In this document: positions 5,122 to 40,795 of the stretch, in pieces
Layout of the letters: every line of letters starts with the position of its first letter
Numbering within the stretch: position 1 is the stretch's first letter
DNA from: Candidatus Thorarchaeota archaeon
GTDB taxonomy: Archaea > Asgardarchaeota > Thorarchaeia > Thorarchaeales > Thorarchaeaceae
DNA length: 64,000 nucleotides
Assembly (NCBI GenBank): GCA_008080745.1
Contig: SHMX01000003.1
Location: 30,971-94,970 of the forward strand
Reading direction: 5' to 3'
Program-made: the position numbers and the translations under genes
The notes under the pieces: generated by a model
What the model was told of the DNA's origin: nothing
Seen by the model: only the letters and a program-made list of their open reading frames with translations
The model's database searches: none

Positions 5122-5589
5122 TCAGTTTTCTAAGGTGGTTTGCGGGCTGTAATCTGATTCATCTACTTCAAGTGTGCCTAAAGAAGTACTCTCGTCCAAC
5201 GAATGCATGACGGATAGTCCACCTGCTATAAAGAGTGCTGCTCCTGTGCCCCAAGAAGTTAGAAAGAGAGCGTCAGAAAATGTAGCAGAACCTTCAAGGA
5301 TGGGCATAATTAAAGCAGTGATGAACATCATTGTTACAATTACCACTGATACTGCCAACATGGTTGGTTTTATCCTACTTCTTTCAGGTTTCAGATAACC
5401 AACAAATGTAAAAATTAGAATTAATGGTGCAGGAAGCAACCAAGAAAGGAAAGACACTCTTGCTAATACGTATCCAGGATTTGCTAGTTCTAGATAGAGA
5501 AAGTTGAAAAAATACGCACTAAGCAATAATATGCCGAGCCAGAGAATGCAATATGGTTCACTGTCCTCACGTAGTTTCATTATCATCAC
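5122..5589 (-). CDS. Multi-pass membrane protein of unknown function
   Basis: 155 aa, about four hydrophobic segments, begins immediately after the stop of the upstream fusion gene. Confidence 0.5.
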   Translation of the reverse strand: MMIMKLREDSEPYCILWLGILLLSAYFFNFLYLELANPGYVLARVSFLSWLLPAPLILIFTFVGYLKPERSRIKPTMLAVSVVIVTMMFITALIMPILEGSATFSDALFLTSWGTGAALFIAGGLSVMHSLDESTSLGTLEVDESDYSPQTTLEN

Positions 5590-7530
5590 CTATGAAATAA
5601 TCCCAAGAGCATCTTGGTTCTCATTCTTCATCTGCCAGTGAGTGGTCCCAGCTCTGATCTTATTCTGGAGAATAAGATGAGCACGAATGAAATCTGATGG
5701 TTTTGGTGGACAACCGGGTAGATAGACATCCACAGGTACAACCTTATCCGGAGGAGTAACTAGAGAATATCCATCCCAGAACAAACCACCACTTGCAGCA
5801 CATTGTCCGAAAGAGATAACGAATTTTGGTTCTGGCATCTGTTCGTAAATTCTTCTTAATCGGGGTGCCATTTTCTTAGTCAGACTTCCAGAAATCCAAA
5901 GTACATCAGTCTGACGTGGACCAAATAGAGGAAGCATTCCAAAGCGTTCCACATCCCAACGAGAAGCAACACCAGCTGCTCCATCAACCATACAACAACC
6001 AAGACCATATTGGATTGGCCATGGGCTATGGGCCCGACCCCAACGGAGAAGCCATTTAATAGGAGGTACATTTTGGAGCCATTTGAGAAGAATTGGTGCA
6101 ATCCTACCAAAACCATTTCGAAGGAAATCAAAAGCTACCCACATGAAATATTTTCCAATGCGTAGGATAAATGGCAGCCAGTATGCGAAAATTTTTCCTG
6201 GATTTGAAATTTCCTTAGGATCATATTTCAGCTTCGCACTTCGAATCCGACTGAGTCTTTTCTTTCCAAAATACTCTGCGGCATAATTGGCAAACCATAT
6301 TCCCGTTGAATGTGCATGTCCACCATGGCGTTGTGCAATTTTGAAAATGACAAAACTTTGAGACCATGATAACATATAGAACCGACGTCGCTCATCCTCA
6401 AGAAAATAGCCCATCATGGTAACTCCTGATTTGGACGTGACATAGCCATCCACACCAGCCTTAGCCGATGCCTGTTCGAATTGAAAATCATCAAGAATAG
6501 CATGGAGATTTTCTAGAGGTGCAAAAGCCTGACCAACAACTAAAGTAGGTCCTGCTTTCTTTATCTTCATTGGATAGAAACGTTCTTCCCATTCGTGTTC
6601 AGCTACATGACGGTCATATATGGTACCTTTGTATTCCTCAACAACATTACGAACTATTCTAAGCCCAGCCTCTCGATCTTCATTACTTCCGTCGAATGCA
6701 AATAGCACTACGCAATGATGAACCGGATATGGGAAAGGTGTATCTTTATCCCAGATTTTCTTCTTGAGATCAACATACTTGCTCTCTTTGAATTTAATAG
6801 TATGAGGTAGTGGTGCTTCTTCTATTATCTTCTCTATTGCCATGTTCATAAGATAATTTTCTGGGAAACTTGCAACGATTGGGTCGATGGGTGTAAGTTT
6901 CTTAGCTTTGATTCTTATCTTTGTGATGATTCCAAGAATACCCTCTGTATCACAGAACAACTCACGTTCTTTGGTCTCGATGATTCTACCATTTGGGAGT
7001 ACCACTTCAAACTCAAGAACACTGTCATTAACTAATCCGTATTTCAACGAGCCAATACCATCTCCACCCTGAGCAACCCACCCACCAACAGTTGCTGAAA
7101 GACCTGATGAAGGGTAGCAACGAAGGTCCAAACCATGACGGTTAAGATGATGCTGAAGATGCGCCCAAGATATTCCTGGTTCGGTAATCACCCATTCTTC
7201 TTCCTCGTTTATCTCAAGAACACGATTCATTTCTCGCATATCAACAATGATTCCGCCCTTACGAGGAATAGCTCCACCATAGCCAGATGTCCCAGCTCCA
7301 CGGGGAACAAGGGGAACCTCCTCTTCGTTAGCAAATTTGTAAAGAGCCTTTACCTCTTCTGTAGTAACAGGCCTAACAAGAGCGTCAGGGTTGTTGTTCA
7401 TCAGCCAACCAACCTGTTTAGGTAGAGACCCCACATCCTGGGAATGAACTATCAATTCGTGTTTAGCAGTGACCAATCGATGGTTGAATATCGCCTTGAG
7501 TTTCTCAAGCTGCTTTTCCTTCAATCCCAT
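5590..7530 (-). CDS. FAD-linked oxidase (GlcD-like) fused to a C-terminal NuoB-like (complex I 20 kDa / PSST) domain
   Basis: N-terminal FAD_binding_4 pattern VRPVTTEEVKALYKFANEEEVPLVPRGAGTSGYGGAIP; oxidase C-terminal motif NPGKIF; then GLGCCMVDGAAG...DRFGMLPLFGPRQTDVLWISGSLTKKMAPRLRRIYEQMPEPKFVISFGQCAASGG...VPVDVYLPGCPPKP, characteristic of NuoB. Confidence 0.88.
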   Translation of the reverse strand: MGLKEKQLEKLKAIFNHRLVTAKHELIVHSQDVGSLPKQVGWLMNNNPDALVRPVTTEEVKALYKFANEEEVPLVPRGAGTSGYGGAIPRKGGIIVDMREMNRVLEINEEEEWVITEPGISWAHLQHHLNRHGLDLRCYPSSGLSATVGGWVAQGGDGIGSLKYGLVNDSVLEFEVVLPNGRIIETKERELFCDTEGILGIITKIRIKAKKLTPIDPIVASFPENYLMNMAIEKIIEEAPLPHTIKFKESKYVDLKKKIWDKDTPFPYPVHHCVVLFAFDGSNEDREAGLRIVRNVVEEYKGTIYDRHVAEHEWEERFYPMKIKKAGPTLVVGQAFAPLENLHAILDDFQFEQASAKAGVDGYVTSKSGVTMMGYFLEDERRRFYMLSWSQSFVIFKIAQRHGGHAHSTGIWFANYAAEYFGKKRLSRIRSAKLKYDPKEISNPGKIFAYWLPFILRIGKYFMWVAFDFLRNGFGRIAPILLKWLQNVPPIKWLLRWGRAHSPWPIQYGLGCCMVDGAAGVASRWDVERFGMLPLFGPRQTDVLWISGSLTKKMAPRLRRIYEQMPEPKFVISFGQCAASGGLFWDGYSLVTPPDKVVPVDVYLPGCPPKPSDFIRAHLILQNKIRAGTTHWQMKNENQDALGIIS

Positions 7531-7702: not shown

Positions 7703-8935
7703 GTGAAACGAATGGAATTTCCATCTCTAAAAGAACGTGGTCTAGATATTCACGCATTCACATGTGCCCAATGTAGCTTCTGCCAAGTTGGGCATGGAGC
7801 ATGTCCCACCTACAAGGTGAAACGTGTAGATAGCTATTCAGGAAAAGGAAAGATGCTGATAACTAGAGCTCTAGCTCAAAAAAGAATTAGTAAGGAAGAG
7901 GGTCTCGAAGGATTACGTGATGGAATATTTGGATGCACACTCTGTGGTGGATGTGAAGAAGTTTGCCAAGTAGATATTCCATTCATTCAAATATACCAGT
8001 TGATGCGATCAGACTTCAAGGATATGGGGATGTGGCCCGAAGGTCTTGGTGATGCGAAAGCTATGCTCATGAAATCAAGAAATATTCAAGGCCAACCACA
8101 GATGGATCGAATTGAGGGATGGTCTTATTGGCATCCAGAGGAAGATTACCTACTTGATCGTGAAGGTGTAAAAAGTAAGACGGCAATTTTTTTGGGTTGT
8201 GCCTCATCCTTCAAAGCGGTACCAATTCAGGCTTCAATTGCAACAGCCATGATAATGGAGAAGATTGATGAAGAATTCACCATGCTTGGAGAAGAGGAAT
8301 GGTGTTGTGGGGCCCCCCTCATAATGACAGGGGATTTCGAAGGAGCTAAAGAGTTTGCCCTTCATAATATTCGGAAATACAAAGAATTGGGAGTTGAGAG
8401 AATCGTCACTAATTGCCCCGGATGTTATAAGATGTGGGCTCATGAATACCATGAGTTTCTAGATATAGATCATGAGTTCGAAATAATATATGGTGCAGAT
8501 TTCTTCATGCGACTGATTGACGAGGGAAAGATGAACAATATCAGTAGCGATTACGAGGCCACCGTAACTTTTCATGATGGGTGCGATGCTGGACGAAATG
8601 CAGGATTCTATGAAGAACCTAGAAAAGTACTTGAAAATCTCCCAGGGGTCACGTTTGAAGAGTTACCCCATAATAAAGCAAATTGTTATTGTTGCGGTTC
8701 GGGTGGAGTTCTGAGAGCTTTTGACAACGAATTCGCACTTCAGATTAATGAGTTAAAAGTGGAAGATATTGAACAGACAAATACCGATATCGTAGTTTCC
8801 ATGTGCCCATCATGTGTTGACTTTATGCATGGTCAGCTACCTGTAGCCGGTTCCGAAAAGGCCTCGATGGATTTGGCTGTAATCATAGCAAAATCTCTTG
8901 GTCTTGAATGGGAGGGATTGGACGAAGTATATTAG
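7703..8935 (+). CDS. GlcF/HdrD-like Fe-S oxidoreductase with two ferredoxin-like motifs and two CCG domains
   Basis: CAQCSFCQVGHGACP and CTLCGGCEEVCQ; CCG domains EEWCCGAP...NCPGCYKMW and NCYCCGSGG...MCPSCVDF. Confidence 0.85.
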   Translation: MKRMEFPSLKERGLDIHAFTCAQCSFCQVGHGACPTYKVKRVDSYSGKGKMLITRALAQKRISKEEGLEGLRDGIFGCTLCGGCEEVCQVDIPFIQIYQLMRSDFKDMGMWPEGLGDAKAMLMKSRNIQGQPQMDRIEGWSYWHPEEDYLLDREGVKSKTAIFLGCASSFKAVPIQASIATAMIMEKIDEEFTMLGEEEWCCGAPLIMTGDFEGAKEFALHNIRKYKELGVERIVTNCPGCYKMWAHEYHEFLDIDHEFEIIYGADFFMRLIDEGKMNNISSDYEATVTFHDGCDAGRNAGFYEEPRKVLENLPGVTFEELPHNKANCYCCGSGGVLRAFDNEFALQINELKVEDIEQTNTDIVVSMCPSCVDFMHGQLPVAGSEKASMDLAVIIAKSLGLEWEGLDEVY

Positions 8936-8936
8936 T

Positions 8937-10031
8937 TCAATCCATGAATAATTTAATGCTAAATAGTGGTCCAATGAAAATAGTCAGAAGAAGCGCAATC
9001 TCCCAGGGTAGCATAAGGCCCAGCATAAGATAAGCAATACATAGTAATATGCCAGTAATCATGTGATTTTGAATGGTGCCTACATTAGCAGAAACAAGTT
9101 TTGGTATGGTATCAAAATTTGTAAGAGTCACTATTGAGCATTTGATAGCAAGTGGAATCGTAATCAATGCGAGAAGAGTATGGAGATGTACATACCCTAG
9201 GAGCATTCCAATTATCAGAAAGATATAGGTAGCAAACATGATTAGACTGTATCCAATCGAGGCTTTTTTTCTGCCAAGTCTAACAACTAGAGTCTTCTTT
9301 CCAGCATCACGGTCAGCATCATGATCGGGAAATTCGTTGATGTAGAGAACCCCCATGATTAGAAAGGCGATGGGTAATGAAGCGATGATGGGTTCTATTA
9401 GAGCTTGGAGGAGAAGGAATGGAATTGATAGGAGGGGTTCAAGGAGGATACTTTGAACAGAATAAGGATATTGAACATAGTATGCACCGATTACCATTAA
9501 CGTACCAAAATTCAGAGCAATAAAAAACTCACCGAATCCGCGTGTCACGAGCTTGAAAGGAGGAGCGGTGTAGAAGAATCCAGAACCAACTCCAATGACT
9601 CCAAGCAGTATTATGAAAATACCCAATTGTAAGAACAGATAGATTCCAATCAGGGCTCCGATTACAAAAAAGACTAAAGAGCCAATTAATACCTCACGCG
9701 CTGAAAGAAACCCTCTTTGAATCATTCTACTACCCCCTGTAAAGGGGCGTATGAATTCTTTGTTAATATCGTCTGATCCAGTCAGGTCTTCGCTATGATC
9801 AAAATAATCATTGGAAACATTAGCTCCTATATGAAGACAAATACCTGCAATTAATGTTAGGAGAAAATAGTCCAATCGAAACACCGAATGCAATCCCCAG
9901 GCAATAGCAGACCCTAGTAAAATTGGAATAGTAGATGCTGTAAGAAATGGAACTCTTAGCTCTATTAACCAAGCTCGGAATTTACCAGGATTCATTTTAT
10001 CCTGAACTGGAATCGATTCGTCTTCGGTCAT
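8937..10031 (-). CDS. UbiA-family prenyltransferase, MenA-like
   Basis: NVSNDYFDHSEDLTGSDDINKEFIRPFTGGSRMIQRG and NEFPDHDADRDAGKKTLVVRLG; start moved to the internal ATG (MTEDESIP) because the long ORF overlaps the divergent gene. Confidence 0.8.
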   Translation of the reverse strand: MTEDESIPVQDKMNPGKFRAWLIELRVPFLTASTIPILLGSAIAWGLHSVFRLDYFLLTLIAGICLHIGANVSNDYFDHSEDLTGSDDINKEFIRPFTGGSRMIQRGFLSAREVLIGSLVFFVIGALIGIYLFLQLGIFIILLGVIGVGSGFFYTAPPFKLVTRGFGEFFIALNFGTLMVIGAYYVQYPYSVQSILLEPLLSIPFLLLQALIEPIIASLPIAFLIMGVLYINEFPDHDADRDAGKKTLVVRLGRKKASIGYSLIMFATYIFLIIGMLLGYVHLHTLLALITIPLAIKCSIVTLTNFDTIPKLVSANVGTIQNHMITGILLCIAYLMLGLMLPWEIALLLTIFIGPLFSIKLFMD

Positions 10032-10150
10032 AAGAAACATGCATCCAAATCCAATCCAATAGAAAAGATTTGCCCCAGAACGAATTTGGTCCAGAATCGC
10101 AAGTGCTAATAAGTTAATTTTTCTACAAGCACTATCACGGAGGAGCTCTC

Positions 10151-11221
10151 TTGGAGGAAAAACCCAAAGACTTGATGAAAGGTATACCAATAACTGATGG
10201 TGAAAAACTGATCAGGGATAACCAAGAAGAGATTATACTAAAGGAGTCCTTCAAGAAACTCTATAGACATCCAGCATTAGTCGAAAGAGTTACTAGAATT
10301 GAAAAGAGCATTCAGGATTTTATCAGAAATAATGATGGTCAACCACAAATTCTCTATGATGCGGCCAACCACTTGATTCAAGCAGGAGGTAAGAGAACGA
10401 GGTCGCTTCTCTCTTTGCTCGCCTGTGAATCAGTGGGTGGCGATACGGAAAAAGCCCTACCTCTTACAATAGCAGCTGAATTATTGCAGACAGCTTCATT
10501 GATTCATGACGATATCATTGATGCGGGGACAACTCGAAGAGGGGTCGAAACAGTCCACCAAAAATATGGCCATCATATAGCAATCTTAGCAGGAGACCTC
10601 CTAATTGCAAAGTCAATAGAAATGATTGGTAAACATGGCTCAACCGAGCTTCTACAGCACATTGGAAATGGCGGTGTCAGGATGTGTGAAGGAGAGGCAA
10701 TCGATCTTGCCCTAAGTACAGATAAGCCAGATGTATTCTCAAAAGATCAATATTTCAAAATGATTGAACTAAAAACCGTCGCATTTCTTAGTGAATCAGC
10801 AAGGCTAGGAGCCATGATGGGAGAGGGAACAGAAGATCATGTGGAGGTTCTATCCGAGTTTGGAGAACATTTGGGATATGCATTCCAGATTCAAGATGAT
10901 ATGCTTGATATGAGAACAACCCATGAAGAGAGCGGCAAGGTTCCTCTTGCCGATTTAAAAAGTCGAAGATGTAATTTCCTCTTGGTCCATGCGTTAGAGG
11001 TTTCACACCAGAGCCATATAGACACCATCAATCAAGCGATAAATGAAGGTAAATTCTTTGATGCCGCAGAATATATTTTAGAAACTGGTGCAGAACAGGT
11101 AGCAATGGATTTAGCTGAAGGTTATGTGAAAAAGGCAAAAGAAACTCTATTACAAAGTAACCTAAGAGGCATAGACTTGCTCAATGAATTTGCAGACTCT
11201 GTAATTCACCGAAACCGTTGA
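10151..11221 (+). CDS. Polyprenyl (geranylgeranyl) diphosphate synthase
   Basis: Aspartate-rich motifs LIHDDIIDAGTTRRG and FQIQDDMLDM; GGKRTRSLL; TTG start. Confidence 0.88.
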   Translation: MEEKPKDLMKGIPITDGEKLIRDNQEEIILKESFKKLYRHPALVERVTRIEKSIQDFIRNNDGQPQILYDAANHLIQAGGKRTRSLLSLLACESVGGDTEKALPLTIAAELLQTASLIHDDIIDAGTTRRGVETVHQKYGHHIAILAGDLLIAKSIEMIGKHGSTELLQHIGNGGVRMCEGEAIDLALSTDKPDVFSKDQYFKMIELKTVAFLSESARLGAMMGEGTEDHVEVLSEFGEHLGYAFQIQDDMLDMRTTHEESGKVPLADLKSRRCNFLLVHALEVSHQSHIDTINQAINEGKFFDAAEYILETGAEQVAMDLAEGYVKKAKETLLQSNLRGIDLLNEFADSVIHRNR

Positions 11222-11229
11222 TTTTGAAC

Positions 11230-12423
11230 CTAATTAAGAATCCTCGTTAAAGGAATTAGAATTTTTGACCCAAGCTTAACAGCAAAAGGCAATCTACATC
11301 TAATCAATGATTCAAGCAGATATGGACCAGCAAGGCTCATACAGATATGTGTTACAATATCATTAGACAGTACTGAATCTGCGATATTCCTAACAGCAAC
11401 AGCTGAGCTAAGTGTTTGTCCAATCTCTGAGGTCCACCTTAGGGCATAATCTGATAGCGGAGTGGATTTCGAAAAGTGATCTAGTATTGTTTCTGCTGCT
11501 ATCTCTCCACCAATAATAGCCGTTGGAATTCCCCCACCATTTGACGCCATAACATGACTTGCCGCATCACCCACTAACAGAACATTGTTACTAAAGGTGC
11601 GGCCAACGGGACCTCCAATAGGTATTAGCGCAGAAACTCTTTGTTCAATTTCTCCACCTCTCATAAGAGGAGATATCAGAGGATTGTGTTTCATGAGATG
11701 CTGCAAAAGTACTCGCAAAGGAGTATTGAACTTGTTGAAGTGTTGTCTTAGACCGAGTCCAAAATTTACTCTCCCATCTCCTTTAGGGATAATCCACGCA
11801 TATCCACCAGGCGCTATTTGCTCACCAAAATACATCTCGGTAACATCAGGATTACAATGAGTGTTCTTTACCACGAATTGAATAGAGTGACTAACAGCAG
11901 AAGAATCTAGGATGTTACCAATGGAACGGGATATCATCGAATTGGGACCGTCTGCACCTACTACAACCCGCGCTGAAAGTGTTCGAGTGCTGTTTCCTTT
12001 TCTGATTTTCAGTTTGTTCGAAGAAGACCTTTTTGCAACACTAGAATCCAGATATAATTCAGCACCAGAATCAATGGCTTCGTCTACCAGATGTTTGTCA
12101 TACAATTTGCGATCAATAATGTTTGCTTTGAATCTGAATCGAGTTCTATTACCAAAAGGAGAAACCAGATGTGTCCAATAAGTCTGGTTTGTTACAAATC
12201 GTGAAGGAATGCAAGCAATTCTCTTAGCTCTTGATGAATAAGGAAATAGATCCGCACATTCTGTAGATGTTGGAAAATATTCACCACATTGGATTGGAAC
12301 CCCGATTGTCTTTCTTCTCTCTATAAGTGCTACATGTAAACCATTCTCAGCTAACATGTGAGCTACGGTACTTCCTGCAGGACCTGCACCGACAACAGCA
12401 ACGTCGTAATCAGTGTCTCGCAT
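11230..12423 (-). CDS. Geranylgeranyl reductase family FAD-dependent oxidoreductase
   Basis: DYDVAVVGAGPAGSTVAHMLAENGLHVALIERR; C-P-x-x CGEYFPT; NNVLLVGDAASHVMASNGGGIPTAIIGGEIAAE. Confidence 0.85.
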   Translation of the reverse strand: MRDTDYDVAVVGAGPAGSTVAHMLAENGLHVALIERRKTIGVPIQCGEYFPTSTECADLFPYSSRAKRIACIPSRFVTNQTYWTHLVSPFGNRTRFRFKANIIDRKLYDKHLVDEAIDSGAELYLDSSVAKRSSSNKLKIRKGNSTRTLSARVVVGADGPNSMISRSIGNILDSSAVSHSIQFVVKNTHCNPDVTEMYFGEQIAPGGYAWIIPKGDGRVNFGLGLRQHFNKFNTPLRVLLQHLMKHNPLISPLMRGGEIEQRVSALIPIGGPVGRTFSNNVLLVGDAASHVMASNGGGIPTAIIGGEIAAETILDHFSKSTPLSDYALRWTSEIGQTLSSAVAVRNIADSVLSNDIVTHICMSLAGPYLLESLIRCRLPFAVKLGSKILIPLTRILN

Positions 12424-12450: not shown

Positions 12451-12801
12451 TTACCATTTTTCGGAGAAAAATACTAGCCAAGCAACAACAGCCTCAAGAT
12501 TGCTTAAGATTAATTCATCCAGTCTGAATAAAGTAGAACCACTCGAGGTCGATATATAATCTGATCCCAAACGAAATCTAGTGGAACCAGAGGAACTAGT
12601 AACAGAAGAATTACTGTATCTCCCAATGGTACTACCGGATGAATTGGTAACATACCCATCTCGGACTCTGCCAATAGTGCTTCCTGAGCTACTCATGACT
12701 GAGCCAGATGAGAATCTTCCAATGGTGCTTCCTGACGAATTGGTGATGTAATCACCTCGAACATAACCAATTGTAGAACCACTACTGTTCATTATTCTCA
12801 T
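12451..12801 (-). CDS. Tandem 16-aa repeat protein, resembles the 5-fold beta-flower family
   Basis: Six consecutive 16-residue units built on xSSGSTIGRxxxxxVx. Confidence 0.65.
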   Translation of the reverse strand: MRIMNSSGSTIGYVRGDYITNSSGSTIGRFSSGSVMSSSGSTIGRVRDGYVTNSSGSTIGRYSNSSVTSSSGSTRFRLGSDYISTSSGSTLFRLDELILSNLEAVVAWLVFFSEKW

Positions 12802-12934: not shown

Positions 12935-15535
12935 GTGAAAAAGCACACCCCTATGCAAAGACAATATTTGGAACTTAAGAAACAGTACAAAGACTGTATT
13001 CTTCTATTCAGACTAGGTGATTTCTATGAGATGTTCAATGAAGATGCGAAGAAAGCTAGTGAAACGCTTGAAATCGTTCTTACCGCCAGGGGTGAAGGTA
13101 TAGACAAATGGCCTATGTGTGGAGTTCCATATCATTCAATTGAAGGGTATATTGCAAAATTACTGGAAGCAGGATACACAGTTGCGATTGCAGAACAAGT
13201 TGAAGATGCCTCCAAAGCAAAGGGCCTAGTTAAACGAGAGGTTGTTCGAGTAATAACACCCGGTACCATTCTGGAGAGCTCAATGCTTGAAGATAGCTCT
13301 AATAATTATCTGGTTGCCGTGATAGAACACGACCAACAAGTGGGTATTGCATCAGTGGATGTTTCAACGGGTGAATTTGTTACTACACAATTTCCGGGAA
13401 CCCTACTGGGTGAGAAAACAATCAATGAATTAGGAAGACTTGGTCCTGCTGAGTTGCTTCTCCCAGAATCAGCTATGGGGTCTCAAAGTGTTATGCAAGC
13501 TTTTGAACCACTGGAAACAAAGATAACCTTCCGAAGTGATCTGGATTTCTCAGCACGTCAATCTGAACAGCGATTGAAAGAACAGTTCAATGTGACAACA
13601 CTGGATGGGTTTGGGCTAATAGAAAAAGAGGTAGCTATTGGAGCGGCTGGTGCGGTTCTAGCTTATTTGCATGACGTGTACAAAGAGAACGTAATCACTC
13701 TCACTGGTGTTAGGACATATTCTGTTGAAAGACACATGATTGTTGACAGGACTACTCAACGAAATTTAGAGCTTCTAAAGAACGCACGAGATGGATCGAA
13801 AAGAGGAACACTTCTGAGTGTTCTATCTAAGACTGTCACGCCTATGGGACGTAGGTTGCTAAAAAAATGGATACTTCAACCATTGATGGATATTGACGAA
13901 ATAAATGAAAGACTGGATGCAGTGGAAGAGTTTGCAAGAAGTGCAATCGACCGACAAGAAACCATGAATAGTCTATCAAATCTTGGAGACCTTGAGAGAA
14001 TAACAAGCAGAGTTGTTTTTGGGACTGGAGGAGCTCGAGACCTAGTCGCTCTTCGAAATGCTCTATCAAGAATCCCTAAAATTAAGAAAAAACTGAATTC
14101 ATGCAAAGCAGATTTAGTCTACAAGTTATGCTCAGATATTGACCCATTAGAATTTTTACATGAAACATTGGAAAAAGCACTGATTGATGATCCACCTGTA
14201 AGTATCCGAGAAGGAGGGATGATTAAGGAAGGATTCAGTGAGGATTTGGACAAGCTGAAGCAGGGCATATCGGATGATAAAAAGTGGATTGCTTCATTGC
14301 AGGTTAGAGAACGAAGAAGAACTGGAATCAAATCACTCAAAGTTGGTTTCAACAAGGTCTTTGGATATTATATTGAAGTCACAAAAGCAAACATAGACAA
14401 CGTTCCTGAGGAATATGAAAGAAAACAAACCTTAACCAATGCAGAAAGATATATCATTCCCGAGCTCAAGGAAAAAGAAGCAAGTGTTCTGGCGGGAGAA
14501 GAAAAAATCAACCAACTTGAATATCGAATCTATGAAGACCTAAGAGCATTAGTAAAGGAGAGGGTTGACGCTCTGAGAAAAAATGCAGATGCCATTGCAA
14601 AGATTGATGTTTTGGCATCACTTGCAGAAGTGGCTGTTCTTAGGAAATATCACAGGCCAGAATTAACAAAAGGAAAAAGAATCAAAATTATTGATGGGCG
14701 ACATCCTTCATTGGAGATGATGCTAGGGCCAAATGAGTTTGTACCAAATAGTCTTGAGATCGGCGATGGGGGAGCTACTTTACTCATCGTTACAGGGCCA
14801 AATATGGCTGGAAAATCAACCTATATGAGACAGACTGCAATAATTGCACTACTAGCACAGATGGGAAGCTTTACTCCAGCAAAGGAAGCAGAAATCGGAT
14901 TGGTTGATAGAATATTTACTAGAGTAGGTGCTTTTGATGATCTTACCGCTCGACAGAGTACATTCATGGTGGAAATGGTAGAAACAGCAAACATTCTGAA
15001 CAATGCCACTGAAAGAAGTCTTGTCATTCTGGACGAGATAGGTCGAGGTACATCGACTTTCGATGGAATGGCACTCGCTTGGGCAGTAGCGGAACAGATA
15101 GTCCAAATAAAATGTCGAACCCTCTTTGCCACACATTTTCATCAATTGACTGATATGGCATCATCCTATCATGGTGTGAAGAATGTACACACTTTAGCAC
15201 GTGAAACGGGAAACACCATTGTGTTTCTTCATAAGGTTGTGGAGGGAGGTACAGATAGAAGTTACGGAGTTCATGTCGCTTCATTAGCAGGTGTGCCAAA
15301 CTCTGTTGTTCGACGTGCTCAACAACTTCTTATAAAATTAGAAAAAGAGAGTACCTTGGAACTTGGTAAAGGTATGGAGGATGCAGAAGAGGCAATTCAA
15401 ACCAGTCTTGAGGCTCTAACAATTGATGACCCAATTGTCGAACGAATTAAACACCTAGATCTTGACCGTATGACACCAGTTGATGCCTTGCTCAAACTTA
15501 AAGAAATGCAAGAAGAAGCTAAAAAACGAAGCTAG
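12935..15535 (+). CDS. mutS: DNA mismatch repair protein MutS
   Basis: FYEMF mismatch-recognition motif; TGPNMAGKSTYMRQTA Walker A; LVILDEIGRGTSTFDGMALAWAV; full MutS1 length; GTG start. Confidence 0.95.
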   Translation: MKKHTPMQRQYLELKKQYKDCILLFRLGDFYEMFNEDAKKASETLEIVLTARGEGIDKWPMCGVPYHSIEGYIAKLLEAGYTVAIAEQVEDASKAKGLVKREVVRVITPGTILESSMLEDSSNNYLVAVIEHDQQVGIASVDVSTGEFVTTQFPGTLLGEKTINELGRLGPAELLLPESAMGSQSVMQAFEPLETKITFRSDLDFSARQSEQRLKEQFNVTTLDGFGLIEKEVAIGAAGAVLAYLHDVYKENVITLTGVRTYSVERHMIVDRTTQRNLELLKNARDGSKRGTLLSVLSKTVTPMGRRLLKKWILQPLMDIDEINERLDAVEEFARSAIDRQETMNSLSNLGDLERITSRVVFGTGGARDLVALRNALSRIPKIKKKLNSCKADLVYKLCSDIDPLEFLHETLEKALIDDPPVSIREGGMIKEGFSEDLDKLKQGISDDKKWIASLQVRERRRTGIKSLKVGFNKVFGYYIEVTKANIDNVPEEYERKQTLTNAERYIIPELKEKEASVLAGEEKINQLEYRIYEDLRALVKERVDALRKNADAIAKIDVLASLAEVAVLRKYHRPELTKGKRIKIIDGRHPSLEMMLGPNEFVPNSLEIGDGGATLLIVTGPNMAGKSTYMRQTAIIALLAQMGSFTPAKEAEIGLVDRIFTRVGAFDDLTARQSTFMVEMVETANILNNATERSLVILDEIGRGTSTFDGMALAWAVAEQIVQIKCRTLFATHFHQLTDMASSYHGVKNVHTLARETGNTIVFLHKVVEGGTDRSYGVHVASLAGVPNSVVRRAQQLLIKLEKESTLELGKGMEDAEEAIQTSLEALTIDDPIVERIKHLDLDRMTPVDALLKLKEMQEEAKKRS

Positions 15536-25629: not shown

Positions 25630-27426
25630 ATGTCAAGAATTAGAGTATTGGACGATGCCCTCGTGACATTAATTGCTGCAGGAGAAGTAATTGAAAATCC
25701 AGCTTCGGTTGTCAAAGAACTGATAGAGAACTCTCTTGACGCTGGTGCAACCCACATCGATGTAAATATTCGTGGTGGGGGTATCGATAGTATCGTGGTT
25801 TCGGATAATGGTTCAGGAATATTGAAAGAGGACGTGCCTATCTGTGTTCTAAGACATTCAACTAGTAAAATATCCAAACGAGCTGATCTTGATGCGATAA
25901 TGACTTACGGATTTCGCGGTGAAGCTCTAGCAACAATGACTGCAGTTGCGGATGTAAAAATTACTACTCGTCATAGAAGCGAAGAGATTGGTTCCCAACT
26001 TGTAGCACGGATTGGAGCAGATGTTTCTGTGACCCCGTCTAATCGATCGACAGGTACACGTGTAGAGGTTACAGACTTGTTCTCACGGGTTCCTGCACGG
26101 AGAAAACATCTTGGTTCGGAAAGAGTCGAAGGTCAACGGGTTCATGAAGTTATGATAAAACATGCAATTGTGAGAAATGACGTTGGATTTCGATTAATAC
26201 GAGATGGAGAAGTCATTCTTGACTGTCCCGAGGGTCAGAGCGCAAGAGAAAGAGTTGCACTGTTATGGGGTAGTGATGTAGCAAAGAATCTGGTTGAGGT
26301 TAGATATAGGGAAGACCAGATTCAGATAACGGGATTTATCGTTCGGCCTCCCGTTTCTAGAGGAAATCGTGGAAGAGAATATTTCTCAGTCCTAAAGCGT
26401 CCCATAGAAGATCAGAGACTTAGTAAGGCAGTTGAGAGCGCATATTCAACTCTGCTTATGTCAGGCCGATTTCCTATCTGTTCATTGGATATATCTCCAC
26501 CCATATCTCATGTAGACGCTAACGTGCATCCTGCAAAAAGAGAGGTTCGTATCCAAAACATAGACGAGCTTGTTAGCACAGTCCGCCGAGCTGTGAAACT
26601 TGCACTCGAGTTGGAAACACCACCTGAAGTGACCGATACTCTTGACGCGTTTGTGGATGAAGAAACAGTACCCTATCGATATGATAGACAACCTTTCGAA
26701 ACCACTGAGAGATATGAAGATACGTTGATAGAACAACAAAGTTTTGGACAAATAGATTCAACAGCTGATATTCTTCATCTGGAAGAAATTGGAGGCGTCT
26801 TTAGAGTAATTGGTCAAATTATGGAGGTTTACTTACTCCTAGAATTTGATGAAGCACTAGTAGTTATAGATCAACATGCAGCTCATGAACGTGTGCTTTA
26901 CGAAATTTTGAGAAAGCAAGTAAACGAGGGAAAAACTGCAGTGCAAGAACTGCTAGAACCAATTGTACTACATTTGGATACTAGTGATGTTGAGAGAATA
27001 TTGGAGCTTGCTGATGTTTTGGAAGACATTGGATACTCTGTAAGCAGTTTTGGAGGAAACGAGATTCTTGTATCAAGTCTTCCTGAAATTCTTGGAAAAC
27101 GTGCGAATGAGGATGAGCTGATTTCATTGGTTGACAGGATACTAGATATTGGAGAAGATGTAACAGAGAAATTTATGGATGATTTACTTCGAGTAACAGC
27201 ATGTCACTCGGCAATACGAGCAGGACAGACTTTGAGTAATAGCGAGATTCGAAAACTCCTCCTAGAGCTGTCAAAGACACCAAATCGGTATAATTGTGCT
27301 CACGGAAGACCAACAATCCTGCGAATTGATAGAGAGGAATTAGACAGAAGATTTGGAAGAACTGGAGTAGCCTATTTCAAGCGGTACAAAGCCAGACATG
27401 GCATCAAAGATGATTTGGATTTATAA
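25630..27426 (+). CDS. mutL: DNA mismatch repair protein MutL, endonuclease-motif type
   Basis: IAAGEVIENPASVVKELIENSLDAGA; GFRGEAL; C-terminal DQHAAHERVLYE, ACHSAIRAGQTL, CAHGRPTIL. Confidence 0.95.
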   Translation: MSRIRVLDDALVTLIAAGEVIENPASVVKELIENSLDAGATHIDVNIRGGGIDSIVVSDNGSGILKEDVPICVLRHSTSKISKRADLDAIMTYGFRGEALATMTAVADVKITTRHRSEEIGSQLVARIGADVSVTPSNRSTGTRVEVTDLFSRVPARRKHLGSERVEGQRVHEVMIKHAIVRNDVGFRLIRDGEVILDCPEGQSARERVALLWGSDVAKNLVEVRYREDQIQITGFIVRPPVSRGNRGREYFSVLKRPIEDQRLSKAVESAYSTLLMSGRFPICSLDISPPISHVDANVHPAKREVRIQNIDELVSTVRRAVKLALELETPPEVTDTLDAFVDEETVPYRYDRQPFETTERYEDTLIEQQSFGQIDSTADILHLEEIGGVFRVIGQIMEVYLLLEFDEALVVIDQHAAHERVLYEILRKQVNEGKTAVQELLEPIVLHLDTSDVERILELADVLEDIGYSVSSFGGNEILVSSLPEILGKRANEDELISLVDRILDIGEDVTEKFMDDLLRVTACHSAIRAGQTLSNSEIRKLLLELSKTPNRYNCAHGRPTILRIDREELDRRFGRTGVAYFKRYKARHGIKDDLDL

Positions 27427-34888: not shown

Positions 34889-37800
34889 CTATTTCTTCCG
34901 TCGAGATGCTAGTATGACTACTAGTATTACGACAACACCAGCACCACCAAGCAGAATCAAAAGATCCATTGGTAGTTCGCCACCAGGATTCTCAGGTCCT
35001 GTTGGAGAGGTAGTGGTCACGGTTACAACACCTTGACCTACAATGTAGGAACCAACCTGTGATGGGTAGTTCTGACCATCAGCTACAACTAGTACTTTGA
35101 AGAATACTTGAGTGCCATCTGGGAATGCCTCAATGATACCGGTCCAGTGAGAACCGTATTCATTGTTCATATCAACCATAGTCCATGTTGATTCATCCGT
35201 ATTGATTCCGTACAGAAGGTAGACGTCGTAATTCTCTACATCAGTAAATATGTCAACACCAATCTCCACATTATCAGTAGAGGTCGGTATGCTTGGACTG
35301 ACAGAGAAGGTTGAAAACTCAACACCGGTAATGGGGCCTCCTTGAGAACCACCATTTGCTGATGTATAACCGACAAAGACTGGGTCCTGATAGACACTAT
35401 AGCCATCCCACTCAGGGAAGCCAATTGTCACATAGAACATGTTACTGCTGAATGACCAACCAGTAGCGCTCTGTCCATTCTGAGATTGGAATGCAGTCTG
35501 GAAAGTATTCATGGGAGTAGTATAACTCAACACGTCATAGCGTTGAGATGTGTTCTTACCCCAATCATATGCCACACCGCCCATTATCATCTCAGCGAAC
35601 TTAGCGCCTGATGTAGCAAAGTCAAACGTAGCAGAAGACACGGTCATATCAGACGTTGCTTCTGTCCCATTAGCATTGACTGTATAATAGTCGCTCATGG
35701 TTACGTCGGCAAAGTAGTTCAAAGCTAAGGATCGATTAACTAAGTTATCACGTCCACCACTACGATCGACATCCCAGTTTCCAACATAGTTGTCTACTTT
35801 GATATCCGCATAGTTATTGATTGCACCTGCGGTCTCATTAATGTGACCCTGGAAATGTACGAGGAAGGAGAGTTCATCTATTGAAATCTTGGTAGGACGT
35901 TCATCAAAGGTTCTCAAGTCAGAACCTTCTTGAATACCATCGTACCAACCCCAATATCCTCTTAGAGTATATGGAAATACGGTTCCATTGACCTCATTGA
36001 ATGTTACACCCCATGTGACCTCATCGGTCAGATTAAGACGCATATAATCACTCTCGTTGGTATTACCATATGCAACACCAGGAGTAACAAATTCGACACT
36101 ATTAACAGAGTCAGGAATCAAATAGTGAGATAGCTCACCACTACCTGGATCTGTAAGGTCGACATCCATTTGGTCGTTCTTGTTCTCATCTTCCCAAATC
36201 ATTAGACCACTGTATTCATAATGCATGTTGATACCAAGCCAGTGCTCAATATCATCTTCTATGTATGAAGTACCATAATCCTGTCCGACACCGAAACTTA
36301 GCCAGGTCCATGATTGCTCATTAGAGGTAATCCAATCCCAACCATTGGCCTCTGCCTCAGCTACGATATCAGTCCATGTGACATTCTTAGCCATCCATGA
36401 CAAATCCCAGTAACCTGGTTGTGGATCTCCTTCTTCAGTTAGGAGAGTAGCAGTCACATCAGCCATCTCGCTCTCGCTAAGTGGACTAAATGTGTTCGCA
36501 TCATACCAATAGAAGGTCTGATTCCATTCGTAAGTCCAGGTAAATGTGTCAAGTCCCATCCATGAATGGATGTCCATATTATCACCATATAATGTGGCAT
36601 TGGGATCCCAATCAATGTGTACCGACATACGGTCCCATGTATGGGTCCAACTGTCAGTGGAAGAGTATTCCTCCTTCACAAAGTATTGGTCAGTAGTAGT
36701 ATCGAGATTACCATCGAGGTCCAGAGCACCATTATCAGGGTTGGTTGTCCAACTCTGAACACCCCACATACCCCAACGAGGTACACCGATTACAAGTTCA
36801 TTGAAGTTCTTGTTTACAGTACTATCGATTGGCTCAAGTCCGTATACCATTGGGTGACCCCAACGCTGTCGAACTCTCTTGATACTCTCCAAGCTAGCAG
36901 CAGCGGTAACCTCTGTTCCATCGTAGGTGAAGTTAAACATTGGACGAGTACCTCGTTCCATGTTCAAGAAAATGTCACCAGACGCTGTGGCATTAACAAG
37001 CCTGAAGGACCAGAAACTGTATCCGTACCATAAATGCTCGTAGGTCTCGCCATTGAAGTCAAAGACCCAATCAGCGAGGGTATCGTTGTAGTAGGTGTAT
37101 GCCATATAGGTAGCAACTCTTGGAAGTTGTATCCAATCGGTCAGATTGACCCAAGTACCATTCAAAGCCTTGTAGTAGTAATAGGTGACATTGTCAATGA
37201 AGTTTGACTCGGGATATGTCATCTGTGAATAGAAGGTTGTTCCATTCAGGTCATATTCATTAATTCTGAAGACATATGTTTCTTGAACTAGCCAGTCAGT
37301 ATTGTTACTTACTAGATCGAGATAACGGTAGGTGTCATTGTATTCCTTTGGCCAATTTGAATCGGGCCATATTGGTTCATATTGAATAGACTCCATGACC
37401 GTAAATCCAAGATTGTCATTGAAAGTTCCAATGTCTCCCGAACGACCCACCATATATGGATTCCATATATCTGTACCATTTGCACTAGTGTAGTGCATGT
37501 TTGGATATTCATCCAGATTGTAGGCGGTACCACCGACATCTATCCATGCATCGAATTCCGTCATGTTATACACTGGATAGTATGTACCAAGATACTTAGC
37601 GAATTTTAGAGTAGGTACCTTTCCACCGTCAGTATCAACATATTCCATATGACTATGCCATTCTGCGTTAGCACCATCATAAGGCATCTCGTACTGGACA
37701 GCATCAATCTCTGTAAACCAAGATCTATGTACCCGCCAGCTCTCAAGAACAAATGTTCTCTCAAAACCATCATAATCCATACTATAGTAGTGTAAAGGAT

Positions 37801-40795
37801 AACTGATGTATGTTAGAACTCCATCAATGGTAGTTTGGTATCTGTACTGATAATAAATACTATCATAGACCTCCTCGACCTCATAGAGATTTCCATCGAG
37901 ATCGGTCATGTAATACTTGCTATCTCTACTTGACCACCACCATTGTGATATTTCCATGGTGCTACTAACACCATAACGAATGAACTTGTCTTGATTATAT
38001 CGCTCTACTTCTACCTTGTCATAAAATTCAAAGCTTTGTAGGTTCCATTTCTGGTACTCTGAACCACCTTGGTGAACACCTCCATCGATATCAACCCAAT
38101 AGAAGTATTCTGTGCTTCCGTGAATCCAATACCGATGCTCTTCCATTGTAGTAAGGAAAGTATCACCAGTGTTAGTAGTCACATTATAGATGTATGCTAC
38201 ATCATCATAGGTCACATAGATCTTTTCAGAGTCATTTTGACGTTCGTAATAGTAGTAATCCCTATCATTTTGTGGATCCCAGTGATCATAGAAGAAGAAC
38301 TGTTCCCAAGTGTTTCCACTGCTAGGATCGAAGTTCTCATAGACTTTGATGGGGATTATTTCACCATTGATTTCAACATAAGGAATCTCTTTACCAGTGA
38401 GGTAATCTGAGCCCTCATTTGCATTGAGTGTATTATTGTAGTAAGCTAGTTGTTGTGTAATTGGTGCTACGTATATCTGATCACCATTGTATTCGAAGCT
38501 ATTTACCCATTCTCGGTCCCAAGATAGTATTTCATGATAACCATAGGGTTGGGAATAGTCTTCATGCCAGGTGTTGTTCATAAAGGCAAAGTTCCACCAG
38601 TAACTGGTATCAGCGACAGTTTCACTCATATTAACCAAGAAAGAAACAACGAGATCGCCACCATCTGTCCAATTATTGAAACTAGATATCTGACAGAAAT
38701 CAGCGGTTATAGCAGCCTCGGGGCTTCTTGGAGGTATGTATTCCTCCTGCCATTTTCCTTCAGCTTGATTATAGTACCACCATTGCCAGTGCCAGCCTTC
38801 AACCTCAGTCCACTCCCACTCCCAGTACTCGCCATAAGCCCAGTCCCAGGTATTGGTAGCTTCATTATATTCATAGTGCCAGCCAGTAGCATTCGTGTAA
38901 ACAAAATCCCAGTAGGTACCATAAGTGTAGTTGTATTTCTCTGTTCGATTGAACGCTGTAAAGGTAGGATTGCCGAGCATATCAAGAGTTACTTGATATG
39001 TGAGTTGAGAATACCAAGATTCTTCCTCACTCCAGTAACCATCATATGCATTTAGAGAGAATCTAGCTCCGTCGATAGAAGCAGCTACTTGTGCACCACC
39101 CTGAAGTCTACCGCGAACCATGAAGTTCTCACCTTTATCAGTATGGAACATCCAGCTATTGGGTTCAGAACCATCTTCAAAGAGAATCTTTGCAATAGTA
39201 ACAGGGGTTTCGATTGCGATTTCTTTGGCATCTTCATATTCATTCCAAGTCATTGGAGAACCATCTCCACCTGCATTGGGCCAGTATTGATAACCATCTG
39301 CACCCATGACGAAATCTTCAAAGTAGAATGTATGTTGATTAGAAACAGGCATATCTTCTGTGAAATGTCCCACAAAATCAACAACAAGTTCTCCGCGTGC
39401 AGTGTAAGCGATACACTCTGATTCATTTAGCTCAAAGAGGTTTGGAAAATCAGTAGGTATTGATTTTAAAACGAGTTCTTCTTCGTCCCAGATACCCTCA
39501 ACATAGTGGTCATAAGGATAGACCCATGCTCTATATCCAACCATTGTATCGAAATTCTCAGTTATGGCATTGTAAATTAGATAGAGGTTCATCTTTTTGG
39601 ATTCATTCCGGAGAACAACATCATAAGAACCAGTCTGAGTGGTTTCATTCCAAATCCATTCAAGGGCATAATATTGTACATCCTCGAATGTGGCGATATC
39701 AACATACTCTCGTCGTTGGTATTCACCGAATACCTCTCGTTGATATGATACTTCAACAGTTTCATCCCAGACATAGGTCTCCAGAGTGTTGTTGTATATC
39801 CAACCACCATTGGTAGTGACGGTTTCCCAGTGTAATCCAGATTCATTTACCCAAGTTTCAATTGAGTAGGGCATATCAAATACCAGGGAAGCATATTCAA
39901 TTTCACCAGTGATATTGAAACGCATAGTAAAGTCAGTTTCACGACTAACAGAGTATAAGGTATCTCCATCTTGGTCAAGCTTCTGAAGTGTGAAGGAACC
40001 ACCATAAGAGAAGCTCCATGCATCCTCCCAAGCTATACCAACCGCAATTCCTTGAAACTCGTAACCACTTCCGTAGTTATAGGATCCAATTGAGTTCCAG
40101 TTCTTATCCAATACCGTCATGTCTAGTTGGAAAAGTCCAATTGGAGCACGATTATTGAACTGTACTCTGAATTCTACATAGTATGTATTCGCATCAGAAT
40201 GATTTGAACAGCTATCGATATCCAAATCCATGAAAGGATCAGTTGGATAGGGGTCAGCTAAGCTCATATTTCTAAGATTGGTATAGATCCACCAGGGTTC
40301 CCATGTGTACTCCATATCCTCATAAGATATGGTAAAGTCAGCACTGAAATTCTCCCAGTCATCTGTCATATACCAACCATGTAGTTCTACACGGCCAAGT
40401 TCTCCATTATCGAATACATTCTTTGGAATTATCGTTTTGATAGTAATCCATTCATTGATATCTACATACTCATCTTGTTGCATCAGATATCCTGTGGAAT
40501 TGTATATCTCGAATCGTGGAGATGGACCGAATAACCAATTTTTGTTATCCCAAGACCATTCATCGCTTGTCGTGTTTGCATCCTGATGCCATGAAACATA
40601 TGTACCATTCTCTTCATGGGGCATATATGGGTCATAAGCAGTGTGGGGTTGAATTGAAGTTACATCTGTTGTATAATCATAAGTAGTAACAGGTACCGCA
40701 GAATTCGACCCTACTGCAATCATGGAAACAAGGAACAACGCAACAGATACAAGTGATAGAATTGTCTTTTGTCTATATCGTCGCATCTTCATCAT
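34889..40795 (-). CDS. Giant (1968 aa) aromatic-rich, sequon-rich surface protein with signal peptide and C-terminal TM anchor
   Basis: N-terminal signal ILSLVSVALFLVSMIAVGS; C-terminal TTTSPTGPENPGGELPMDLLILLGGAGVVVILVVILASRRKK; many NxT/S sequons; uninterrupted ORF. Confidence 0.8.
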   Translation of the reverse strand: MMKMRRYRQKTILSLVSVALFLVSMIAVGSNSAVPVTTYDYTTDVTSIQPHTAYDPYMPHEENGTYVSWHQDANTTSDEWSWDNKNWLFGPSPRFEIYNSTGYLMQQDEYVDINEWITIKTIIPKNVFDNGELGRVELHGWYMTDDWENFSADFTISYEDMEYTWEPWWIYTNLRNMSLADPYPTDPFMDLDIDSCSNHSDANTYYVEFRVQFNNRAPIGLFQLDMTVLDKNWNSIGSYNYGSGYEFQGIAVGIAWEDAWSFSYGGSFTLQKLDQDGDTLYSVSRETDFTMRFNITGEIEYASLVFDMPYSIETWVNESGLHWETVTTNGGWIYNNTLETYVWDETVEVSYQREVFGEYQRREYVDIATFEDVQYYALEWIWNETTQTGSYDVVLRNESKKMNLYLIYNAITENFDTMVGYRAWVYPYDHYVEGIWDEEELVLKSIPTDFPNLFELNESECIAYTARGELVVDFVGHFTEDMPVSNQHTFYFEDFVMGADGYQYWPNAGGDGSPMTWNEYEDAKEIAIETPVTIAKILFEDGSEPNSWMFHTDKGENFMVRGRLQGGAQVAASIDGARFSLNAYDGYWSEEESWYSQLTYQVTLDMLGNPTFTAFNRTEKYNYTYGTYWDFVYTNATGWHYEYNEATNTWDWAYGEYWEWEWTEVEGWHWQWWYYNQAEGKWQEEYIPPRSPEAAITADFCQISSFNNWTDGGDLVVSFLVNMSETVADTSYWWNFAFMNNTWHEDYSQPYGYHEILSWDREWVNSFEYNGDQIYVAPITQQLAYYNNTLNANEGSDYLTGKEIPYVEINGEIIPIKVYENFDPSSGNTWEQFFFYDHWDPQNDRDYYYYERQNDSEKIYVTYDDVAYIYNVTTNTGDTFLTTMEEHRYWIHGSTEYFYWVDIDGGVHQGGSEYQKWNLQSFEFYDKVEVERYNQDKFIRYGVSSTMEISQWWWSSRDSKYYMTDLDGNLYEVEEVYDSIYYQYRYQTTIDGVLTYISYPLHYYSMDYDGFERTFVLESWRVHRSWFTEIDAVQYEMPYDGANAEWHSHMEYVDTDGGKVPTLKFAKYLGTYYPVYNMTEFDAWIDVGGTAYNLDEYPNMHYTSANGTDIWNPYMVGRSGDIGTFNDNLGFTVMESIQYEPIWPDSNWPKEYNDTYRYLDLVSNNTDWLVQETYVFRINEYDLNGTTFYSQMTYPESNFIDNVTYYYYKALNGTWVNLTDWIQLPRVATYMAYTYYNDTLADWVFDFNGETYEHLWYGYSFWSFRLVNATASGDIFLNMERGTRPMFNFTYDGTEVTAAASLESIKRVRQRWGHPMVYGLEPIDSTVNKNFNELVIGVPRWGMWGVQSWTTNPDNGALDLDGNLDTTTDQYFVKEEYSSTDSWTHTWDRMSVHIDWDPNATLYGDNMDIHSWMGLDTFTWTYEWNQTFYWYDANTFSPLSESEMADVTATLLTEEGDPQPGYWDLSWMAKNVTWTDIVAEAEANGWDWITSNEQSWTWLSFGVGQDYGTSYIEDDIEHWLGINMHYEYSGLMIWEDENKNDQMDVDLTDPGSGELSHYLIPDSVNSVEFVTPGVAYGNTNESDYMRLNLTDEVTWGVTFNEVNGTVFPYTLRGYWGWYDGIQEGSDLRTFDERPTKISIDELSFLVHFQGHINETAGAINNYADIKVDNYVGNWDVDRSGGRDNLVNRSLALNYFADVTMSDYYTVNANGTEATSDMTVSSATFDFATSGAKFAEMIMGGVAYDWGKNTSQRYDVLSYTTPMNTFQTAFQSQNGQSATGWSFSSNMFYVTIGFPEWDGYSVYQDPVFVGYTSANGGSQGGPITGVEFSTFSVSPSIPTSTDNVEIGVDIFTDVENYDVYLLYGINTDESTWTMVDMNNEYGSHWTGIIEAFPDGTQVFFKVLVVADGQNYPSQVGSYIVGQGVVTVTTTSPTGPENPGGELPMDLLILLGGAGVVVILVVILASRRKK

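Follow-up and report, generated by a model that had tools for sequence, protein, structure and literature searches.

Given an open reading frame of a Thorarchaeal genome that joins a flavin oxidase to a NuoB-like domain, we wondered whether its product is an enzyme in its own right or whether it belongs to a complex I and, if so, what the flavin does there. This touches two open questions, namely how the archaeal complex I that lacks NuoEFG is fed and how complex I gained its input modules, and a flavin enzyme fused to the N2 subunit suggests an unrecognised electron feed into a main respiratory pump. Thorarchaeota belong to the archaeal group closest to eukaryotes. The window analysed here is a stretch of 64,000 nucleotides that begins at C3:30971 of what we call the home genome; the main features around the fusion are collected in Table 1.

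The reading frame runs from ATG to TAG without interruption, with Pfam matches to FAD_binding_4 (E 1.6e-40), FAD-oxidase_C (E 1.6e-9) and Oxidored_q6 (aa 523-617, E 9.9e-24). Its C-terminal part passes the NCBIfam model nuoB_fam TIGR01957 (172.5 bits, cut-off 142.7) and PRK06411 (180.2, cut-off 116). Matches in the PDB fall into two separate groups, the complex I subunits PSST/NdhK/Nqo6 for aa ~491-630 (best 147.9 bits), and LctD with D-lactate dehydrogenase for aa 44-447. All four N2 cysteines are invariant in the 18-21 aligned orthologues and show the tandem CC spacing of complex I, as opposed to CxxC in the hydrogenase-type sequences compared; the FAD loop is likewise invariant across the aligned orthologues. 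A sequence-only reading of the locus had described a single 646-codon frame, a GlcD-like flavin oxidase followed by a NuoB-like domain, and four N2 ligands, and all of this is borne out. Its further proposal, that the flavin is wired directly to the N2-type cluster, is plausible given that both domains sit in one polypeptide under strong constraint. The two are connected by a linker of ~43 residues, many of them invariant across orthologues, in which hydropathy predicts no transmembrane helix. No linker ATG is common to all fusion homologues, which makes a separate start of NuoB inside the frame improbable, although a single species may differ. An AlphaFold2 model of the fusion, computed from 21 close orthologues, had a mean pLDDT of 49.9, with values below 50 in the NuoB part.

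Table 1. Features at and around the fusion gene, in window positions.
Feature	Position	Strand	Evidence
Fusion protein, 646 aa: GlcD-like FAD oxidase + amphipathic linker + NuoB domain	5590..7530	-	ORF, Pfam, NCBIfam, orthologues
FAD_binding_4 domain, aa 48-186, pyrophosphate loop PRGAGTSGYGGAIP	6973..7389	-	Pfam 138.5 bits
FAD-oxidase_C domain, aa 231-447	6190..6840	-	Pfam, alignments
Linker, aa 449-491, W/F/R-rich amphipathic, conserved	6058..6186	-	alignment, hydropathy, hydrophobic moment
NuoB domain, aa 493-630; N2 ligands C512, C513, C577, C607	5641..6054	-	Pfam, NCBIfam, PDB matches, alignment
Small membrane protein, 155 aa, 3-4 predicted helices, abuts fusion stop	5122..5589	-	conserved neighbour, hydropathy
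HdrD/GlcF-like Fe-S protein, two [4Fe-4S] motifs, two CCG domains	7703..8935	+	Pfam, motif conservation, linkage
UbiA-family prenyltransferase, MenA-like rather than lipid-type, start codon uncertain	8937..10190	-	Pfam, NCBIfam
Polyprenyl synthase	10151..11221	+	Pfam 208.5 bits
Geranylgeranyl-reductase (GGR) family protein	11230..12423	-	TIGR02032 above cut-off

The fusion recurs, at 74-90% identity, in 23 contigs of other assemblies, nearly all labelled Thorarchaeota (20 of them complete, a few truncated where the contig ends), and the mean column identity of the aligned orthologues is 86%. We also surveyed 228 Asgard genomes, all metagenome assemblies, of which 47 belong to the window's own Thorarchaeal family. 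Within that family, 31 genomes encode the fusion (complete or truncated only where a contig ends), while none of the 181 other Asgard genomes does; beyond Asgard archaea, the scan covered close relatives only. Recurrence in 23 contigs and 31 genomes rules out an assembly joining error or a missed stop. In the open-access literature, we found neither an earlier description of an FAD oxidase-NuoB fusion nor a covalent link between Asgard complex I lacking NuoEFG and Dld-HdrD. For complex I, B-C and B-C-D are the only fusions named in the main text of a survey of archaeal fusions that includes Thorarchaeota (PMC11237513).

The sequence-only reading had found the window devoid of NuoD and of all other complex I genes and had supposed that the protein acts without the rest of complex I. 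The first statement holds inside the 64 kb, but a nuo cluster begins just beyond them. It encodes homologues of NuoA, C, D and H-N as well as a fourth antiporter-like subunit, and the second statement is not supported. The cluster (C3:18501-29876; NuoD, C3:26836-27966) has the order NuoA-J-K-C-D-H-I-M2-L-M-N, all on one strand, with NuoA starting 1.1 kb left of the window edge; M2 is the additional antiporter-like subunit beside NuoL, NuoM and NuoN, and NuoI has two 4Fe-4S motifs. NuoB, NuoE, NuoF and NuoG are all missing from it. Four other Oxidored_q6 proteins are encoded in the home genome, all away from the fusion locus; one belongs to a cluster in which NuoD carries the CxxC pairs of hydrogenases, one adjoins a hydrogenase large subunit, and others lie on C5 and C10. 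Among the sequences compared, which included the hydrogenase-type ones, the fusion is the only complex-I-type NuoB seen in this genome. A nuo cluster devoid of NuoB, with the fusion as the only NuoB of complex I type seen, leads us to read the fusion as the missing B subunit.

About five unrelated genes separate the fusion from the nuo cluster in the home genome, whereas in most relatives the fusion stands immediately upstream of it. In four relatives (L002, L005, L019 and L066), the divergent HdrD-like gene, the fusion and the small membrane gene are followed by NuoA-J-K-C-D-H-I-M2-L-M-N. The linked type of NuoD (74-100% identical) is present in 30 of the 31 fusion genomes, and in 25 of the 31 it lies on the same contig as the fusion, at a distance of 3.0-9.8 kb. 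Two genomes have this NuoD without an intact fusion: in G200 only the first 116 residues of the fusion are visible, at a contig end, and G183 is a 74%-complete assembly in 480 contigs. The co-occurrence, the linkage on one contig, the tandem CC pair and the upstream position together favour the complex I reading, and the fusion is very probably the B subunit of a Thorarchaeal complex I. A free-standing flavin-N2 enzyme, as first proposed, agrees with the content of the 64-kb window itself; given the complex I genes 1.1 kb outside it and the co-occurrence and linkage across the family, it can hardly be right, all the more as one family member that has lost this complex I (G217, below) has lost the NuoB domain as well. 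Membership of the group 4 [NiFe]-hydrogenases is ruled out, as the linked NuoD lacks both Ni-ligand CxxC pairs. These pairs are present in a separate, hydrogenase-type cluster on home contig C11 (L035:2303-6436), which encodes homologues of NuoA, B, D, H and I.

Divergent from the fusion stands the gene of the HdrD/GlcF-like protein, with CxxCxxC at aa 21 and 78 and CCG at aa 201 and 330 with flanking C and CxxC (Pfam CCG, 113 bits). Its cluster cysteines are kept in the aligned copies from Thorarchaeota and from a second Asgard family, f27. The gene occurs in 30 of the 31 fusion genomes, in 28 on the same contig as the fusion, and its product is the likely redox partner of the FAD domain. At the other end, the small membrane gene is kept beside the fusion in nearly all loci, its start overlapping the stop of the fusion in many relatives (TAATG or ATGA); its product matched no Pfam or NCBIfam family. 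Genes for UbiA, polyprenyl synthase and GGR recur near the fusion or the HdrD-like gene in relatives. Another recurrent neighbour of the HdrD-like gene in Thorarchaeota encodes a pyridoxamine-phosphate-oxidase-like flavin/F420-binding protein (L016:6760-8512 and relatives), and a protein of this kind is encoded beside nuoA in f27 (L057:8711-9193).

In some relatives the modules are arranged differently. A separate NuoB, 57-60% identical, adjoins NuoA in G001, which suggests from the sequences that the fusion is the derived state. In the complex I cluster of family f27 (G178, G179), NuoB is likewise a protein by itself, of 171 aa, and NuoL-M-N are followed by genes for an FAD protein, an HdrD-like protein, a flavin amine-oxidase-like protein, UbiA, GGR and polyprenyl synthase (L056:4723-11133 and L061:6369-13893), possibly a biosynthetic set for a prenylated carrier. 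The FAD protein of f27 is 36% identical to the FAD part of the fusion and has a C-terminal transmembrane helix. G217 lies inside the Thorarchaeal family; it has only a hydrogenase-type NuoD, without this complex I, and keeps a 498-aa FAD domain with a linker-like tail, the HdrD-like gene, UbiA, polyprenyl synthase and GGR. No NuoB domain is present on this FAD protein (L060:9882-11378), which thus offers a natural separation of the FAD and NuoB functions. In G006, FAD and HdrD are joined in one protein of 1070 aa (L058:1547-4759). The FAD-HdrD pairing therefore exists as divergent genes, as an operon (G217, f27) and as a fusion (G006), from which we conclude that FAD-HdrD is a unit that occurs with or without complex I and that the NuoB domain follows complex I.

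These arrangements raise the possibility that FAD-HdrD by itself reduces a membrane carrier and that the fusion only co-locates two enzymes, with no transfer between FAD and N2. G217, where FAD, HdrD, UbiA, polyprenyl synthase and GGR persist without this complex I, fits such a tether, as do the FAD-HdrD units of f27 and G006 that are unfused from NuoB, the amphipathic linker and the membrane helix of the f27 protein. However, the near-perfect co-occurrence with complex I and the invariance of linker residues point to a tight role in the structure, and a complex I that lacks NuoEFG and FpoF needs an input; on this evidence, we consider a mere tether unlikely.

Under closer inspection, the FAD-oxidase_C domain departs from its characterised relatives. 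In the alignment, the metal motif GHxGDGNxH is replaced by GYVTSKSGV and GEHGIG by AHSTGIW, and an invariant histidine motif, RHGGHxHS, is found; the metal motif is likewise missing in the relatives of the FAD domain from f27, f9 and G006. The GHxGDGNxH and EHGIG motifs hold the metal and catalytic residues in D-2-hydroxyacid dehydrogenases, and their replacement means that the substrate is probably not lactate or glycolate. The FAD part is ~26% identical to LctD and D-LDH, and the GlcD model TIGR00387 is not passed (144.7 bits, cut-off 567.9). Judging from the sequence, a classical D-2-hydroxyacid is an unlikely donor; lactate- or glycolate-type donors would also offer thermodynamically little driving force for complex I. 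Of the GlcD-type oxidase proposed earlier, the two FAD domains stand, whereas the typical GlcD/lactate reaction is doubtful. The same replacements could indicate that the FAD domain is catalytically dead and merely a structural or assembly part of complex I. With the FAD-binding loop and the new histidine motif invariant and the cluster cysteines kept in the partner Fe-S protein, we regard this as very unlikely.

We next turn to the electron input. NuoF was not detected in the home genome, nor in 9 of the 12 genomes tested, and the FrhB/FpoF C-terminal domain PF04432 is absent in the home genome; FrhB-type or NuoF-type proteins are encoded elsewhere in other Thorarchaeota genomes tested. NuoEFG are normally missing from archaeal complex I, so that their absence excludes only the NADH type. 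As for electron direction, substrate, acceptor and ion pumping, we infer the following scheme. The FAD domain and the HdrD/GlcF-like protein would stand in for NuoEFG or FpoF as the electron entry: a donor would be oxidised at the FAD of the fusion, and the clusters of the HdrD-like Fe-S protein, perhaps together with NuoI, would relay the electrons to N2. From N2 they would go to a lipophilic carrier inside the NuoB/NuoD/NuoH chamber, with ion movement by the antiporter-like subunits.

This electron-entry reading is supported by the FAD-HdrD pairing in three arrangements together with f27, where the same modules are unfused, and by the absence of NuoF and of the FrhB/FpoF domain in the home genome. 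Several observations count against it. G217 indicates that the FAD-HdrD unit can work without this complex I; the replaced metal and catalytic residues leave the activity of the FAD domain putative; ferredoxin could feed NuoI directly; some five genes intervene between the fusion and the nuo cluster; other Thorarchaeota encode FrhB- or NuoF-type proteins; and Tyr87 of the quinone site is replaced by Met in NuoD, with MqnA/D and MenD not found (below). The electron-entry role makes confidence in the whole reading lower than in the B-subunit identity alone. On balance, we lean towards a complex I variant in which NuoB bears its own flavin, and in which this flavin, together with the HdrD-like protein, serves as the electron entry. 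The more specific proposal, that a VAO-family flavoenzyme in the N2 subunit and an HdrD-like protein provide an entry without NADH, F420H2 or necessarily ferredoxin, with an undescribed flavin chemistry and prenylated carrier, is a tentative one.

On the acceptor side, NuoD keeps His38 and has Met at the position of Tyr87 in all eight Thorarchaeal sequences aligned; both residues have roles at the quinone head group (PMC7684303). The futalosine enzymes MqnA/D were found in none of the 47 family genomes, and all MenD matches in 12 genomes fell below the cut-off. Menaquinone is thus unsupported as the carrier. The nearby UbiA, GGR and polyprenyl synthase genes suggest a prenylated carrier. As to the quinone-like acceptor of the sequence-only reading, a canonical quinone is doubtful with a NuoD that lacks Tyr87.

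Alternatively, the flavin may be the exit or a second redox site, with electrons running from ferredoxin through NuoI and N2 to FAD/HdrD and an acceptor, and with ion pumping as in MBH/MBS. The FAD sits on NuoB, where the chain of clusters ends; both cluster motifs are present in NuoI, fit for ferredoxin-type entry; the quinone-site residue Tyr87 is missing, as it is in MBS (PMC7684303); and ferredoxin has been put forward, as a hypothesis only, as the donor of the complex I without NuoEFG of other Asgard archaea, namely Sifarchaeia and Jordarchaeia (PMC9723677). Yet His38 is kept in NuoD, N2 is held by the CC pair of complex I and not by the MBS arrangement, and the MenA-like, GGR and polyprenyl synthase genes hint at a lipid carrier as acceptor, which together make an exit role rather unlikely.

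Returning to a flavin that feeds complex I, we compared the Thorarchaeal enzyme with known systems. It shares with the 11-subunit complex I of archaea and some bacteria, which lacks NuoEFG, the homologues of NuoA, B, C, D and H-N, the tandem-CC N2 ligands and a NuoD without Ni ligands; it differs in the NuoB-FAD oxidase fusion, the HdrD-like partner, the fourth antiporter-like subunit and the Met at the Tyr87 position. Fpo/Fqo (F420H2:phenazine/quinone oxidoreductase) is likewise a complex I of archaea that is fed through an alternative flavoprotein, and the FpoD, FpoH, FpoI and FpoC models match the Thorarchaeal nuo genes below cut-off. In contrast to Fpo/Fqo, no FpoF-type protein was detected in the home genome, and the Thorarchaeal flavoprotein comes from another family and is fused to NuoB. 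By analogy, the enzyme thus appears most like a complex I without NuoEFG that has an alternative flavoprotein input, comparable to FpoF in Fpo. MbsL of the membrane-bound sulfane reductase (MBS) of Pyrococcus is the best single PDB match of the Thorarchaeal NuoD (199.7 bits), and Tyr87 is absent in both. MBS has a proximal cluster with three cysteines and lacks His38 as well as Tyr87, whereas the Thorarchaeal proteins have four cysteines with a tandem CC and keep His38, which sets the enzyme apart from MBS. We know of no FAD fusion in MBS. With GlcD-GlcF, Dld-HdrD and LctD, the Thorarchaeal pair shares the FAD fold family and a two-CCG Fe-S partner; it differs in that the FAD part is fused to NuoB and has other residues in place of the metal-binding and catalytic ones of 2-hydroxyacid dehydrogenases. 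Dld-HdrD gene pairs and a complex I without NuoEFG have already been described in Asgard archaea, each separately (PMC9723677). The fusion to the N2 subunit now names a candidate redox partner, the same modules being kept apart in another Asgard family. What feeds the complex can thereby be tested on a single polypeptide, and the range of enzymes that couple to the complex I core becomes broader.

Elsewhere in the window, homologues of MutS (12935-15535, +) and MutL (25630-27426, +) lie ~10 kb apart in this archaeal genome. Next to MutS, a 116-aa protein of SSGSTIGR-type repeats (12451-12801, -), conserved beside MutS in two relatives (L001:4581-5093 and L002:2313-2663), is probably a small beta-solenoid. 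Two adjacent genes (34889-40795 and 41036-47833, -) encode giant W/Y-rich proteins of 1968 and 2265 aa with a C-terminal transmembrane tail, which look like related surface-layer-type proteins.
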